This document shows positions 11,816-25,460 of a DNA stretch of 26,062 nucleotides, one piece after another; position 1 is the first letter of the stretch; each line of letters starts with the position of its first letter. The notes beneath the pieces were generated by a model that saw nothing but the letters and a program-made list of their open reading frames with translations, did not search any database and was not told the origin of the DNA. This DNA is from a virus. A program made the position numbers and the translations under genes. The DNA is taken from positions 1 through 26,062 of IMG/VR virus record IMGVR_UViG_3300009082_000055. One strand, given 5' to 3'.

Positions 11816-12154
11816 TCAGAAATTCGGCTTGGAGGTCTTGTCCTTGCCGTTCCCGTTGCTGGGGCTGCGGACCTCGGCGACCTCGGCCTCGCACCGCTTC
11901 TCGACCCACTTCTTGGCGAACTCGTCCGCCGCGTCGATGTCCTCGACGTAGCAGGGGACCTCCAGCACGACGTCGAACCTGGCGCTCTCGTAGTTGCCCA
12001 GGTTCATGGTGAGCCCGTAGCCCCGACGCACGCGCGCCACAGGCCCCTTGAAGTCGTGGACGAGCACGGTCTCCTCCTTCGAAGTGGAGTCGTACTCCTC
12101 ACCCTTGTGGACGAACCGCCCGTCGATGAAGGCAACCGCCGCTTCTTCCGCCAT
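11816..12154 (-). CDS. Unknown 112-aa protein preceding recA-like gene
   Basis: I recognise no named domain. The central region (about residues 35-90) has alternating beta-like strands with GYGLTMNLGNYESARFDVV, followed by an acidic helix (DIDAADEFAKKWVEKR). This layout occurs in many small phage proteins encoded near recombination genes, but I cannot assign a function. The C-terminal tail is polar, rich in Ser, Asn, Gly and Lys. The ATG at 12154 is preceded by GGACGGAGGGAAGC, matching the leader motif used by other promoter-proximal genes here, and by a promoter at 12173-12200. It therefore heads the recombination operon. Confidence 0.83.
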   Translation of the reverse strand: MAEEAAVAFIDGRFVHKGEEYDSTSKEETVLVHDFKGPVARVRRGYGLTMNLGNYESARFDVVLEVPCYVEDIDAADEFAKKWVEKRCEAEVAEVRSPSNGNGKDKTSKPNF

Positions 12155-12172
12155 GCTTCCCTCCGTCCTTCC

Positions 12173-15629: not shown

Positions 15630-16800
15630 CACCCTTTCCCCACGGCTCACCCAAGAGCTGGCGATGCTCATGGGGCAGCATCGAGGCTGGGTCGCTTCCA
15701 TCCGGGCATGGCCTCGTGAAGCACGGAACACGCCTGGCGATCATGTTCTTGACCATAGCCCCCATGCTGTGACCCGCCTCGTCGCCGTCGTGGACCACGA
15801 GGACGATCCGCATGGGCCTCCTCGGGATGCTGGCGTAGTGGACCAGGCGCTCGACCTGGCTCTCCCCCACCTTCGTCCCCAGCGTCGCAACCACGGGGCG
15901 GTAGCCGGCCTGCCAGAGCATCAGGGCGTCCAGATGCCCCTCGACCACGTAGAGCCTCGTGCCGCTGTCGTTGGGAAGCATGTGCTCACCGTACAGGAAC
16001 ACGTTGCGATGGAAGCCCTTGCTGTGGAGGTACTTCGGTGGGGGCTCCTTGCCACAGTTGCCGCAGATCCTCTTGCCCTTCTTCGCCGGGGGGATGGGCG
16101 CCATCGTGACGACCTGACCTCCACACCGCACGCACTTCTTCTCCTCGTAGAGGCGCCCGCTGATTGCTATGAGCCGACCATGATGGTCCCGCATCGGGAA
16201 GAGGATGCGCCGCATCCTCGTGTCGACGCCAAGCTCCCACTCCAGCCAGGTGTCGAGGTAGATCCCACGAGCTTCCGCGTAGGGGTGGATGGCCTCGGTC
16301 AGGTAGGGCTCGTACTCCGCCCAGGGGATCTCGGGCACATCATCGCTGGCTGCGATGGCGTACTTGTCATGCCACGGAGCATCCTCTGTCTGCCGCCTGC
16401 GACGATAGACCTCGTGAGCGCCCCCATCGTGCTGGAGCTTCGCCAGCCTGGCGGCCTTCTCGTGCAGGAAGGGGTTCTGGACCTCCTTCCCCTCGGGAGG
16501 CTTCACCGGGGCGTCTGGACCGTCCAGCGCCTCGATGGTGTTCATCATGTTGAGGCCGGTCTTGTGCCACAACAACAGCACGAGGTCTCGTAGCGAGCCA
16601 TCGTGGTGGCACGCCTGGCAGGAGTAGATGGGATCGCCGTACTTGCCCTCGGGGAAGACGACCATCGAAGGCGTGCTGTCCTTGCCACCTGGATGGGTCC
16701 ACGGCGCAAGCAAACAGGAGCACCGCACACGGTCCCGCGCGATGCTCGTGTTACGGGCGCCGATGGTCTGGAGGATGGCCTGGAGTCGTCCCGGGGTCAC
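15604..16800 (-). CDS. DnaG-like primase (zinc-binding and TOPRIM domains)
   Basis: This 398-residue protein combines an N-terminal zinc-binding domain (C27, C29, H36, then C61-x2-C64 in IYSCQACHHDGS) with a TOPRIM catalytic core: LYVVEGHLDAL with E287 and D291, then VVHDGDEAG with D338 and D340. Such primases synthesise RNA primers on the lagging strand and usually work with a DnaB-type helicase, encoded a few genes upstream. Between the two domains there is a second CxxC pair set (C223/C226 and C246/C249), a probable extra zinc ribbon. It starts at GTG 16800, overlapping the previous stop in a GTGA junction, with GAGGGTGAG ahead. It ends with TAG. Confidence 0.92.
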   Translation of the reverse strand: MTPGRLQAILQTIGARNTSIARDRVRCSCLLAPWTHPGGKDSTPSMVVFPEGKYGDPIYSCQACHHDGSLRDLVLLLWHKTGLNMMNTIEALDGPDAPVKPPEGKEVQNPFLHEKAARLAKLQHDGGAHEVYRRRRQTEDAPWHDKYAIAASDDVPEIPWAEYEPYLTEAIHPYAEARGIYLDTWLEWELGVDTRMRRILFPMRDHHGRLIAISGRLYEEKKCVRCGGQVVTMAPIPPAKKGKRICGNCGKEPPPKYLHSKGFHRNVFLYGEHMLPNDSGTRLYVVEGHLDALMLWQAGYRPVVATLGTKVGESQVERLVHYASIPRRPMRIVLVVHDGDEAGHSMGAMVKNMIARRVPCFTRPCPDGSDPASMLPHEHRQLLGEPWGKGVDTQIAMG

Positions 16801-17180
16801 GCGATCTCACCCTCGAACCACTCCTTGGCCCTGACGACGTTGCGCTCGATGCGCTCGATGACGGCCTCGATGCCTCCATCGCGGAGCTGCTTGGCCATCT
16901 CCTCCAGTTGCTCGATGGTGAACGTGATCGGAGGTGGCCCAGCCGCCATGAGCTGCGCCTTGCCGATCCAGTCGCGCACGTCCAGATCGTCCGGGGCGCC
17001 GTACTCCTCGGCGAAGTCCACGGAGCTGGAGCACATGACCCCATCCTCGGGATCGGCTCCCCACTCCTTCAGGGTCTCTGCCAGCGCGGCCTTGCCCTCG
17101 TCGTCGAACGAGAAACCACGCTTGGTGTTGTCGTGGTTGCGAAGAGTCAGGCTGCCGTTTTCGACCGATGCGAAGATCAT
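16797..17180 (-). CDS. Unknown 127-aa protein upstream of primase
   Basis: I do not recognise this acidic protein. The N-terminal part (residues 1-30) looks like a small beta-sheet (MIFASVENGSLTLRNHDNTK), and the C-terminal half is a long helical region with EQLEEMAKQLRDGGIEAVIE. The ATG at 17180 is chosen over the longer frame because it is preceded by GGACGGAGGGACACC, the leader motif shared with other promoter-proximal genes, and by a promoter at 17204-17231. It is translationally coupled to the primase (GTGA overlap), so a replication-related role is possible. Confidence 0.85.
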   Translation of the reverse strand: MIFASVENGSLTLRNHDNTKRGFSFDDEGKAALAETLKEWGADPEDGVMCSSSVDFAEEYGAPDDLDVRDWIGKAQLMAAGPPPITFTIEQLEEMAKQLRDGGIEAVIERIERNVVRAKEWFEGEIA

Positions 17181-17203
17181 GGTGTCCCTCCGTCCGTGCA
17201 TCC

Positions 17204-21752: not shown

Positions 21753-22415
21753 CTAGGCCGCTTCGAGGTGACCCAGCTCGCGGAAGATGTGGAAGCCGGG
21801 GTCGTACTTCTCGGTCGTCTTGTGGAAGTGCCCCATGACCCCCTGGAAAGCCCGCTGCTCCTTGGGCGTCAGCACCCTCAAGGCGATCTCGCCACTCGGC
21901 TCCCTTGGGAACACCAGGGGGATGCCGAGCACGGTGCAGAGCACCTTCGTGAGAGCCGCCACGCTGTCGAGCTGGTCCGGGAAGAACCTGGCGCATCGAA
22001 CCTTGGCCCCGTGGATGATCTCGTCGTCCACGATGCGGTCCTTCCCCTTCGAGGGGAGAGGTTGTCCCTTCAGCCTGAAGCCGTAGCTGGCGATCTCCAA
22101 GCTGATCGACCGACGCCCGATCTGGCCATCCGTGTCCCTGGGGTCGTAGAGAACTGGGTCCAAGAACTGGTAGATGATGCCATCCCTGTTGATGCAGAAC
22201 GTCACGCCCAGGCTGCGGTTGAGGAGGGTGTTGTAGGTGGTCTCGGCGCTGTTCTCGCCGCCGGTCCAGTGCCAGATGATGACGTCAGGACGAAGCTCCC
22301 GCTTCAACGTGTTCTTCTTCCCGACGAAGCTCATCCCGTGGTCCTCCCACGTCTTCACCGGAGCCCCCACCAGATACTCCTTGCCGTCCAGGATGATCTT
22401 GCCCGTGTTGCTCAT
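21753..22415 (-). CDS. Endolysin: N-acetylmuramoyl-L-alanine amidase
   Basis: This 220-residue protein matches the Amidase_2 (PGRP-like) fold. IIWHWTGGENSAETTYN gives the first zinc histidine (H49), GVTFCINRDGIIYQF the central strand, and GHFHKTTEKYDPGF near the C-terminus gives the second histidine and the Lys/Asp pair (K203, D205). It would cut the amide between N-acetylmuramic acid and L-alanine to lyse the cell. There is no separate wall-binding domain and no signal peptide. ATG 22415 lacks a good ribosome site and lies inside the upstream lysis gene (131-base overlap), so its translation may depend on that gene. Confidence 0.92.
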   Translation of the reverse strand: MSNTGKIILDGKEYLVGAPVKTWEDHGMSFVGKKNTLKRELRPDVIIWHWTGGENSAETTYNTLLNRSLGVTFCINRDGIIYQFLDPVLYDPRDTDGQIGRRSISLEIASYGFRLKGQPLPSKGKDRIVDDEIIHGAKVRCARFFPDQLDSVAALTKVLCTVLGIPLVFPREPSGEIALRVLTPKEQRAFQGVMGHFHKTTEKYDPGFHIFRELGHLEAA

Positions 22416-23415
22416 GGGTGGAGTCTATCGCGGCTGGCAACCCATATCCAAGCTGAACGCAGATGGGCTCCGGGTCTGTGCGACACCCAGGCTGTCCTGG
22501 CCTGCACCAGAAGGCGTTGAGGGTGTCAGTGTCCTCGATACGAGCCAGCCCCCGCGAACAAGCGATCCTATCGTCGCAAGCCCCGGTCTTGCTCTCGCAA
22601 CGACCACCCCATGTCATGGGACGGCCTCCTAGCCACGCGAGGTCGACGCCAGGACGCCGAGGCGGCAACTCCCCCTTCAGCAGATACCTCCCCAGCTCTA
22701 CGACATGAGGGCACCTCTTCGCGCCGTACTGGGCGTCCCACTGGCTCTCGCCCCCGGTCCAGCCCTCCGGGACATCACAATCGGTCGTCAGCTTCGAGAT
22801 CCAGGCCGCCCGGCCGTTCCTGATGGGGACGTAGCCGAGGACGTGTCTCTGGCTGCGCCGCATGACGCTGAGCATCGTCTCGCCGTCCTCGTCGCACTCG
22901 GTGATCCGCCGCACCTCGCCACGGTCGCAAGCTCGGCGCCGGATGTTCTTGAAGACCTGCCAGATGCCCACGCAGTCCTGGGAGTTGCCATCGGCCTCAG
23001 CGATGCAGATCCGCAGAAAAGCCGTCAGGACGTCCAGCTCCGTCTCCTCGTCGGGGACGTTCCAGACCTTCCCCCTGGTCTCCGCCGGGCTCTCCCACTG
23101 GAACCGCCGCACCTCACGCTTCTTCGGTGGCGGCGCGTTCTCCAGCTCGGCCTGGAGGGCAACCCGCCTGGCCTCTGTCTCGGCCTCGATCTTCGCCCAC
23201 CGAGCGTCTCTCTCCTTCTCGCTGCGGTCCCGCTCCCTGTCGAAGTCCTCGCGCTGCTGACGAGCTTTCGCGCGCCGAGCCTCACGTTGCGCGACCACAG
23301 CCCCCTGAGCTTCGTCTTCGCAGACAACCCACGGGATCAGCGCAGACAGCGCAGCCATGATGAGAACCGCGACCAACACCATCACCCCCTTCGCCTTCGA
23401 TGACCATGAAGCCAT
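22285..23415 (-). CDS. Membrane-anchored coiled-coil, Cys-rich lysis-associated protein
   Basis: This protein has an N-terminal anchor (residues about 10-31, VMVLVAVLIMAALSALIPWVV), then a highly charged coiled-coil stretch (about 40-95), then a domain with many cysteines (CIAEADGNSQDC, CDRGEVRRITEC, WISKLTTDCDVPEGW). Anchor plus periplasmic coiled coil recalls inner-membrane spanins; the Cys-rich part has a transglycosylase-like look (AEAD, IWQVFKNI), which I hold weakly. ATG 23415 has the strong site GGGAGGTGAACC. The frame continues 43 codons over the endolysin start; those residues are Gly/Glu-rich and look like a frame shadow, so the real C-terminus may be under little constraint. Confidence 0.78.
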   Translation of the reverse strand: MASWSSKAKGVMVLVAVLIMAALSALIPWVVCEDEAQGAVVAQREARRAKARQQREDFDRERDRSEKERDARWAKIEAETEARRVALQAELENAPPPKKREVRRFQWESPAETRGKVWNVPDEETELDVLTAFLRICIAEADGNSQDCVGIWQVFKNIRRRACDRGEVRRITECDEDGETMLSVMRRSQRHVLGYVPIRNGRAAWISKLTTDCDVPEGWTGGESQWDAQYGAKRCPHVVELGRYLLKGELPPRRPGVDLAWLGGRPMTWGGRCESKTGACDDRIACSRGLARIEDTDTLNAFWCRPGQPGCRTDPEPICVQLGYGLPAAIDSTHEQHGQDHPGRQGVSGGGSGEDVGGPRDELRREEEHVEAGASS

Positions 23416-23469: not shown

Positions 23470-23560
23470 CAAAAGGCGAACCCCCCGGGCACCACCCCGG
23501 GGGGTTCTAGGACGGAGCGACCACCATGGCCGCCGCTGCGGAGGACAGCCGCAGCATCTA
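23470..23560 (-). ncRNA. Candidate small structured RNA (~90 nt)
   Basis: A promoter (23567-23594) and a strong terminator (23479-23506) enclose about 90 bases without a convincing gene. The minus-strand RNA would fold into three successive hairpins: GCTGCGG/CCGCAGC (arms 23549-23555 and 23535-23541), GCGGCCA/TGGTCGC with one wobble, and the 11-bp terminator stem. The first hairpin shows CTGTCCT in its loop. A 16-codon frame starting MLRLSS is present but has no ribosome site. The best reading is a phage regulatory RNA; a short leader for the lysis gene that is attenuated at the terminator is the main alternative. Confidence 0.55.
23479..23506 (-). terminator. Strong intrinsic terminator
   Basis: AACCCCCCGGG (23479-23489) pairs perfectly with CCCGGGGGGTT (23496-23506) across a 6-base loop. 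On the minus strand the stem is followed by CGCCTTTTG, giving a short T-run. No T-run follows on the plus strand. Confidence 0.85.
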
Positions 23561-23566
23561 TTCAAC

Positions 23567-23594
23567 AACCTAGCCCATCGGCATCGGTTGTCAA
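23567..23594 (-). promoter_or_regulatory. Promoter of the candidate small RNA
   Basis: TTGACA (23589-23594), 16 bases, TAGGTT (23567-23572) on the minus strand, the same form as the gene promoters of this window, but with no gene directly behind it. Confidence 0.75.
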
Positions 23595-24086: not shown

Positions 24087-24319
24087 CACCCACCCATGAT
24101 CTTCCTGCACACGTCCGGTTGGTACTCCCGGAGGTCGAGGAGGAGGTCACGCGCGTACTCGTCGTCGCGCCTGCGCTGCTCCTCGACGTACCGCTCCTCG
24201 CACGCCTGCGAGCAGAAGCCGCTCGCCGACTCGGAGTTGTCGCCGCCGCACACGGGGCAGCTCTCCGGGGGCTCGATCTCCGTCTCCCACTGCTCACGAC
24301 GTCGCATGGCTGTTGGCAT
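24083..24319 (-). CDS. Small YacG-like zinc-finger protein (78 aa)
   Basis: The 78-residue product carries CPVCGG (C21, C24) and FCSQAC (C36, C40), the CxxC...CxxxC layout of YacG/FCS-type zinc fingers; YacG is known as a small DNA gyrase inhibitor, though the rest of this protein is different (acidic helix RDDEYARDLLLDLREY). DNA or protein binding is likely; gyrase inhibition is only a thought. ATG 24319 is chosen because GGACGGAGGGACACC precedes it and a promoter lies at 24343-24370; the longer frame would begin within the promoter. The stop overlaps the -35 box of the next promoter. Confidence 0.82.
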   Translation of the reverse strand: MPTAMRRREQWETEIEPPESCPVCGGDNSESASGFCSQACEERYVEEQRRRDDEYARDLLLDLREYQPDVCRKIMGGC

Positions 24320-24342
24320 GGTGTCCCTCCGTCCTTGGACAC

Positions 24343-24878: not shown

Positions 24879-25439
24879 CTACAGGCTGGCGCTGTCGAGG
24901 GAGGCTCCCTGGGCCTCCCGTTGTTTCCTCGCGCACTCCTCGGCGTGAGCCCGAGCACGAGCGATGATCGCCTGTCGCTTGTGCTCCAACTGCTCGGCCT
25001 GACGCTTCTCCTTCTCGGCCTGGTCGAGCGCCTGAGCCTCCACCTCGGTCATGATGGTCCACACGACCCTGCGGCCCCGGCGCACGCGCGGCCCCAGGCG
25101 ACCGACGATGGTGACCCCCTCGGTCCTGGTCATGCTGTCGCAGTCGTACCAGACCGCCGCCTTCTCGGCGCTCTCGGCCCGGTAGACCTCGAAGCCCTGC
25201 TTCGCGTCCTCGTGGATGATGAAGACCGGCCCCTTGCCGTAGAAGCGGTCCTTGGCGCGCTCGATCTGCGCGTTGAGCAGGATGGCCTCCTTGTACCCGT
25301 AGTCGCCTGGGTACTTGAACATCGTGTCGTGGTCGTTGCTGCGGCAGAGGTACGCCATGATGTTGGCGTCCACGATCTCGCCGCCGGGCAGCTCGACGCT
25401 CTGGGTCTTGGCCCTCAAGGTGTAGGTGTAAACGCCCAT
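24879..25439 (-). CDS. Unknown 186-aa protein
   Basis: I recognise no family. Residues 1-125 look like a compact alpha/beta domain (MGVYTYTLRAKTQSVELPGG; GPVFIIHEDAKQGFEVYRAE; GVTIVGRLGPRVRRGRRVVW). The last 60 residues form a charged helix rich in Glu, Gln, Arg and Ala. The ATG at 25439 is preceded by GGACGGAGGACACC and a promoter at 25461-25488, so it is probably expressed early and independently, with the 152-aa gene as the second gene of the transcript. Confidence 0.83.
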   Translation of the reverse strand: MGVYTYTLRAKTQSVELPGGEIVDANIMAYLCRSNDHDTMFKYPGDYGYKEAILLNAQIERAKDRFYGKGPVFIIHEDAKQGFEVYRAESAEKAAVWYDCDSMTRTEGVTIVGRLGPRVRRGRRVVWTIMTEVEAQALDQAEKEKRQAEQLEHKRQAIIARARAHAEECARKQREAQGASLDSASL

Positions 25440-25460
25440 GGTGTCCTCCGTCCTCTCGCA

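Follow-up and report, generated by a model that had tools for sequence, protein, structure and literature searches.

Relatives and a putative small RNA gene upstream of lysis-like genes

The minus strand of a 26,062-nt IMG/VR virus record (the window, meaning the whole stretch of DNA that was analysed) has a promoter and a terminator in close succession directly upstream of a gene of about 376 codons, raising the questions of what is encoded between them and on what it might act. The features of the locus were compared with those of three related phages found by protein-based searches (G001 = 3300027057_000001, G002 = 3300021351_000053, G003 = 3300033155_001653):

23594..23567, minus strand: sRNA promoter TTGACA-N16-TAGGTT, matching both hexamers of the promoter family of the window
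23470..23560, minus strand: predicted small RNA (sRNA) of ~91 nt, its putative start set 7 nt past the -10 hexamer
23535..23555, minus strand: hairpin 1, loop CTGTCCT, kept in G001 and absent from G003
23516..23534, minus strand: hairpin 2, the 3' half of which prolongs the antisense match to a shared leader
23508..23515, minus strand: linker CCGTCCTA, 8 nt, single-stranded, the proposed seed
23478..23507, minus strand: intrinsic terminator, 12 bp, loop GTGGTG
22285..23415, minus strand: gene directly downstream of the sRNA, ~376 aa, with a hydrophobic N-terminal segment and Cys-rich, marking the conserved position

The original prediction of a family-type promoter with a terminator about 90 nt further on is borne out on the minus strand (23594..23470). 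The promoter family has 11 copies within 2 mismatches in the window against 1.8 expected, a number reached by none of 100 shuffles. The GC-rich intrinsic terminator hairpin is present as predicted, with a stem of 12 bp rather than 11 and the tail GCCTTTTG. The three hairpins also appear in the fold computed for the window (hairpin 1, hairpin 2 and the terminator) but are not universal among the relatives. The predicted fold has an energy of -53.4 kcal/mol (z -3.3, equalled by 0 of 200 shuffles), much of the score being supplied by the terminator. That no credible gene lies between promoter and terminator holds for conserved open reading frames; a 16-codon ORF nevertheless opens with an ATG at 23557 (MLRLSSAAAAMVVAPS, stop codon TAG at 23509-23507). 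It has no Shine-Dalgarno sequence and no counterpart in G001, G002 or G003, and was dropped as a candidate leader peptide for these reasons. A search of the element for tRNA or tmRNA found none, Rfam returned no family for the window at the gathering threshold and only weak matches to irrelevant families at the E-value level, and the covariance model of the C4 antisense RNA had no match at its gathering score and none at E up to 5. With its own promoter, its own intrinsic terminator, a conserved structure and no conserved ORF, the element has the attributes of a stand-alone sRNA gene, and the original reading of it as such is supported as far as can be judged from sequence.

The product of the 376-aa gene has no Pfam or PHROG match. 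It is followed by the gene of an Amidase_2 protein; both look like lysis genes, and they adjoin the sRNA.

Conservation of the element

The element is located directly upstream of the homologous ~376-aa gene in all four phages. In the three relatives it has the order promoter-hairpin-linker-terminator:

G001: L002 6100-6240
G002: L004 276-535
G003: L015 9832-9935

The check that had been proposed on homologous phages thus came out in favour of the prediction, G001 to G003 having the element at the same position with its structure kept and no conserved ORF. All four have a promoter of the same type, the linker TCCGTCYTA(A)GA and a terminator whose loop is GTGGTG. The linker is conserved as TCCGTCYTA across the four phages, that of G002 being altered to TCCGTCTTA. 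The hairpins before the terminator vary in sequence, length and number: G003 has a single one and G002 a longer 5' part, and these hairpins differ even though G001 and G003 share 82-86% identity with the window in their DnaB-like proteins. In the alignment of the four sequences, 97% of cells are paired and five pairs are changed on both sides (4/500 shuffles), whereas in slid controls pairing drops to 39-61%.

The nearest described phages are distant, the terminase being ~34% identical to those of Vibrio phages. Among 50,697 phage records there was no DNA similarity to the 1.2-kb region, and searches of viral contigs with sRNA patterns returned the known members only, plus chance matches in coding DNA. 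The DnaB-like protein and the sRNA pattern had no match in 84,980 bacterial and archaeal genomes, and so no host is assigned. The DnaB-like helicase ORF of G002 (L004 4348-8046) encodes 1232 aa, compared to 446 in the relatives, owing to two insertions, one of ~420 aa after residue 185 and one of ~360 aa after residue 376, which are likely to be inteins.

Complementarity to a leader shared by early-type genes

Genes behind the promoter family, four of them in the window, have in common a very short leader with the consensus AGGACGGAGG(G)ACACC-ATG, in which GGACGG starts 4-10 nt, mostly 7-9 nt, past the -10 hexamer, close to where the transcript should begin. The sequence GGACGGAG occurs five times in the 26-kb window: four copies are in these leaders (24334, 25453, 17195 and 12168, minus strand), 11-14 nt before the ATG and behind a family promoter, and the fifth lies opposite the sRNA linker, on its antisense strand, which makes the linker antisense to the shared leader. 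The same sequence is among the commonest 8-mers of 36 leaders (12/36). The predicted targets, with their pairing energies, are:

25436..25454, minus strand: leader AGGACGGAGGACACC-ATG of the MGVYTYTLR gene (24879-25439), -21.8 kcal/mol
24317..24335, minus strand: leader AGGACGGAGGGACACC-ATG of the gene of a small Cys-rich (zinc-ribbon-like) protein, -22.2 kcal/mol
17178..17195, minus strand: leader GGACGGAGGGACACC-ATG of the gene at 16797-17180, -19.1 kcal/mol
12152..12169, minus strand: leader AGGACGGAGGGAAGC-ATG of the gene at 11816-12154, -11.0 kcal/mol

The leader of the MGVYTYTLR gene is kept in G001 and G003. These genes appear to be of early type, judging only from their promoters and non-structural character. 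Many family promoters share a spacer motif, CGCAAACCAnTGCTTAGATT (window 26043, 25488 and 24370; many in G001 and G003), which is missing from the promoter of the sRNA; there may be two subclasses of promoter, or the motif may be an operator.

The match in the window extends beyond the linker: CCATGGTGGTCGCTCCGTCCT (23529-23509) is the antisense of AGGACGGAGGACACCATGG apart from two bulges of one base each, and the loop of hairpin 1 contributes a second match of 9 nt, TGTCCTCCG (23547-23539) being antisense to CGGAGGACA of the shared leader. Compared with dinucleotide shuffles, the longest exact match of the pre-terminator part has p values of 0.007 in the window, 0.03 in G001, 0.03 in G003 and 0.2 in G002, and the duplex energy has p values of <0.0005, 0.04, 0.0015 and 0.03, respectively; because the four sRNAs are homologous, the values do not amount to four independent tests. 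A whole-sequence duplex scan that ignored accessibility was rejected as too permissive, GC-rich non-target sites scoring equally.

Leaders were ranked by pairing energies corrected for the accessibility of both partners. In the window, the four shared-leader genes rank 1-4 of 8 leaders, the remainder being at -7.6 or weaker, and the mean over the targets is -18.3 kcal/mol, compared to a shuffle mean of -3.6 and a best value of -12.2 among 300 shuffled sRNAs. In G003, the six GGACGG leaders rank 1-6, with a mean of -14.3 (p ~0.05 against shuffled sRNAs). The target mean of G001, -9.3, is not above shuffles (p 0.36, 120 shuffles), and its best sites use hairpin 1. By these energies the case for pairing with the leaders is strong in the window, weak in G003 and absent in G001. 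An accessible seed complementary to the ribosome-binding region of distant targets is found in the window and weakly in G003. Linker and leader are each conserved in G001 and G003. The G002 contig is without an early region, and no leaders matching the altered linker were found on it; the early-region leaders of this phage are predicted to carry UAAGACGGA.

Some complementarity comes cheaply when leaders with Shine-Dalgarno sequences are purine-rich and the linker is pyrimidine-rich. It is possible, if rather doubtful, that the element encodes an ordinary stand-alone phage sRNA acting on host mRNAs or a host protein, its match to the leaders reflecting a generic anti-Shine-Dalgarno character: the leaders contain GGAGG and hairpin 1 contains UCCUCC, the complementarity in G001 is no better than in shuffles, and off-target sites are equally strong when accessibility is disregarded. 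Yet the match outruns GGAGG in both directions, taking in AGGAC at one end and ACACCATGG at the other, and the targets of the window beat 300 of 300 dinucleotide shuffles. Moreover, the element kept in G003, AGGACGG, is not the Shine-Dalgarno sequence in several leaders, being retained even where the latter is separate or altered (L048 1017, 2484 and -258).

Proposed mechanism

The reading that we favour, with a probability of about 0.55, is that the locus encodes a stand-alone, trans-acting antisense sRNA that would occlude the Shine-Dalgarno sequences of an early-type phage regulon. The sRNA would be transcribed from a promoter of the same class as those of its targets and ended by its own terminator. 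Its exposed linker, CCGUCCUA, would act as the seed by pairing with the AGGACGG that lies close to the 5' end of the shared leader, after which hairpin 2 would open and pairing would spread across the Shine-Dalgarno sequence (GGAGG) and the start codon. Ribosome loading would thereby be blocked, and translation of several early-type phage genes would stop together, perhaps with decay being triggered. A multi-target function, which goes beyond the original prediction, is plausible and would probably reside in the 3' half of hairpin 2 together with the linker. What the nucleotide sequences themselves show is a conserved element, a leader common to several genes and the complementarity of the two; from these we infer transcription, pairing in the cell, repression as the direction of the effect, and its timing; late shut-off of the target genes is plausible because the sRNA adjoins the lysis-like genes (the 376-aa gene and that of the Amidase_2 protein).

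The invariable location of the element upstream of the 376-aa gene in four of four phages, with the terminator of the window ending ~60 nt before the start codon, would also suit a cis-acting leader or attenuator, in which promoter, leader and terminator gate transcription of that gene. Such an arrangement is improbable, given that no alternative antiterminator fold is found (a single dominant fold with a paired terminator is predicted in the window, G001 and G003) and that no such element precedes the homologous genes of other phages (L017-L021 and L024), the contig L022 ending at that point. Furthermore, the 376-aa gene may have its own promoter, since the interval separating it from the terminator contains, in each of the four phages, a candidate extended -10 element (TGnTAGGGTGC or TGGTAAAGTGC). 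The form TGnTAGGGTGC is conserved at 23452-23441 of the window (minus strand), L002 ~6262 and L004 ~547. It is very improbable that TAGGACGG, found at a nearly fixed distance, mostly 7-10 nt, past the -10 hexamer in many family promoters, is the DNA operator of a phage regulator with an inverted copy in the sRNA region as with stoperators, RNA pairing being incidental, because that copy falls within a linker left unpaired in a conserved RNA fold, the antisense match runs past the linker, and no copy occurs elsewhere in the window.

Comparison with known phage RNAs

The C4 antisense RNA of phages P1 and P7 and the CI RNA of satellite P4 silence early genes through exposed bases that pair with phage leaders; they are processed from the leader of the transcript that they regulate and act on one locus. 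The putative sRNA of the window resembles them in being a small phage RNA with exposed bases matching phage leaders, but a promoter and a terminator of its own set it apart, as do its several predicted targets. Lambda OOP RNA and P22 sar RNA are short RNAs that base-pair with phage mRNAs and thereby block them, each being antisense to one gene (PMC12197685), whereas the sRNA of the window is encoded away from its predicted targets and would pair imperfectly with several. VpdS of phage VP882 is trans-encoded and Hfq-dependent and affects both host and phage RNAs (PMC12197685); the likeness is that of a trans-encoded phage sRNA with phage mRNA targets, here predicted ones, but no repeated leader is described for VpdS in that source. 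Most of the phage antisense RNAs known to date silence a single gene; an sRNA matched to a repeated start leader would shut off a whole gene set at the level of translation, with no protein repressor.

The closest known parallel, which is a lead rather than proof, is that of the cluster K mycobacteriophages, in which start-associated sequences (SAS, GGGATAGGAGCCC) that include the Shine-Dalgarno sequence directly precede the start codons of 13-19 genes; some of these phages have one inverted SAS copy away from any gene start (PMC3203893). Whether the binding partner of the SAS is RNA or protein was left open (Pope et al. 2011, PMC3203893). A non-coding gap close to the right end of the genome (gp92-gp93 of Adephagia, gp96-gp97 of Anaya) contains a stable hairpin whose loop has the inverted copy (Adephagia 58682-58694, Anaya 59870-59882); late transcription of Adephagia appears to begin in the gp92-gp93 gap (PMC11373665). 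The region was found in 177 Mycobacterium phage records. The hairpin is kept in nine sequences with 98.6% of cells paired; two pairs are changed on both sides, a number not above shuffles, and the covariation score is reached by 19 of 500. In Adephagia, Anaya, Enkosi, Validus and Niklas the hairpin has a 10-nt antisense loop, which was not found in five further phages examined; Amgine, DarthP, Phrank and Ximenita retain the hairpin with poorer complementarity to an SAS consensus that has not changed. Across cluster K genera, co-variation between SAS and loop is not supported, the SAS being constant while the loop drifts.

Both systems combine a repeated leader containing a Shine-Dalgarno sequence before start codons with a single inverted copy away from any gene start, located in the single-stranded linker of the sRNA in the window and in a hairpin loop in Adephagia and Anaya. 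The phages are unrelated, however, and the leaders (AGGACGGAGGACACC in the window, GGGATAGGAGCCC in cluster K) are analogous rather than the same sequence; nor is the mycobacteriophage RNA described as a regulator in the cited cluster K papers. A speculative and unlikely extension is that unrelated phages have convergently built start-signal regulons, in which a repeated leader marks early genes and a cognate anti-leader RNA from the late-gene boundary silences them all. If true, this would explain the role of the cluster K SAS and its inverted copy. The sRNA of the window gives a testable idea for the SAS; both Adephagia and its host are cultivable and open to assay.

Non-coding sequences upstream of the sRNA

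Pieces resembling the 3' ends of tRNAs are located just upstream of the sRNA promoter (window 23650-23600, minus strand; L002 5860-5900 and 6050-6100, with GTGGGTTCGAGGCCCAC..CCACCA in L002), where ARAGORN and Rfam identified no tRNA or tmRNA. A second, longer conserved non-coding stretch (window 24058-23600, minus strand; L002 5280-6100; L015 9391-9825) spans from its own family promoter (24086) to the sRNA, and contains a GCCAGCC..GGCTGG hairpin and a conserved GGTCTAnGTCAGGG...GAGnGCGGGTGACCCGGC block. This stretch could be a target or a sponge of the sRNA. It opens with a strong Shine-Dalgarno sequence and a two-codon ORF in three of three phages (ATG-CCC-TGA, ATG-AGC-TAG and ATG-GAC-TAG), which resembles a minigene.
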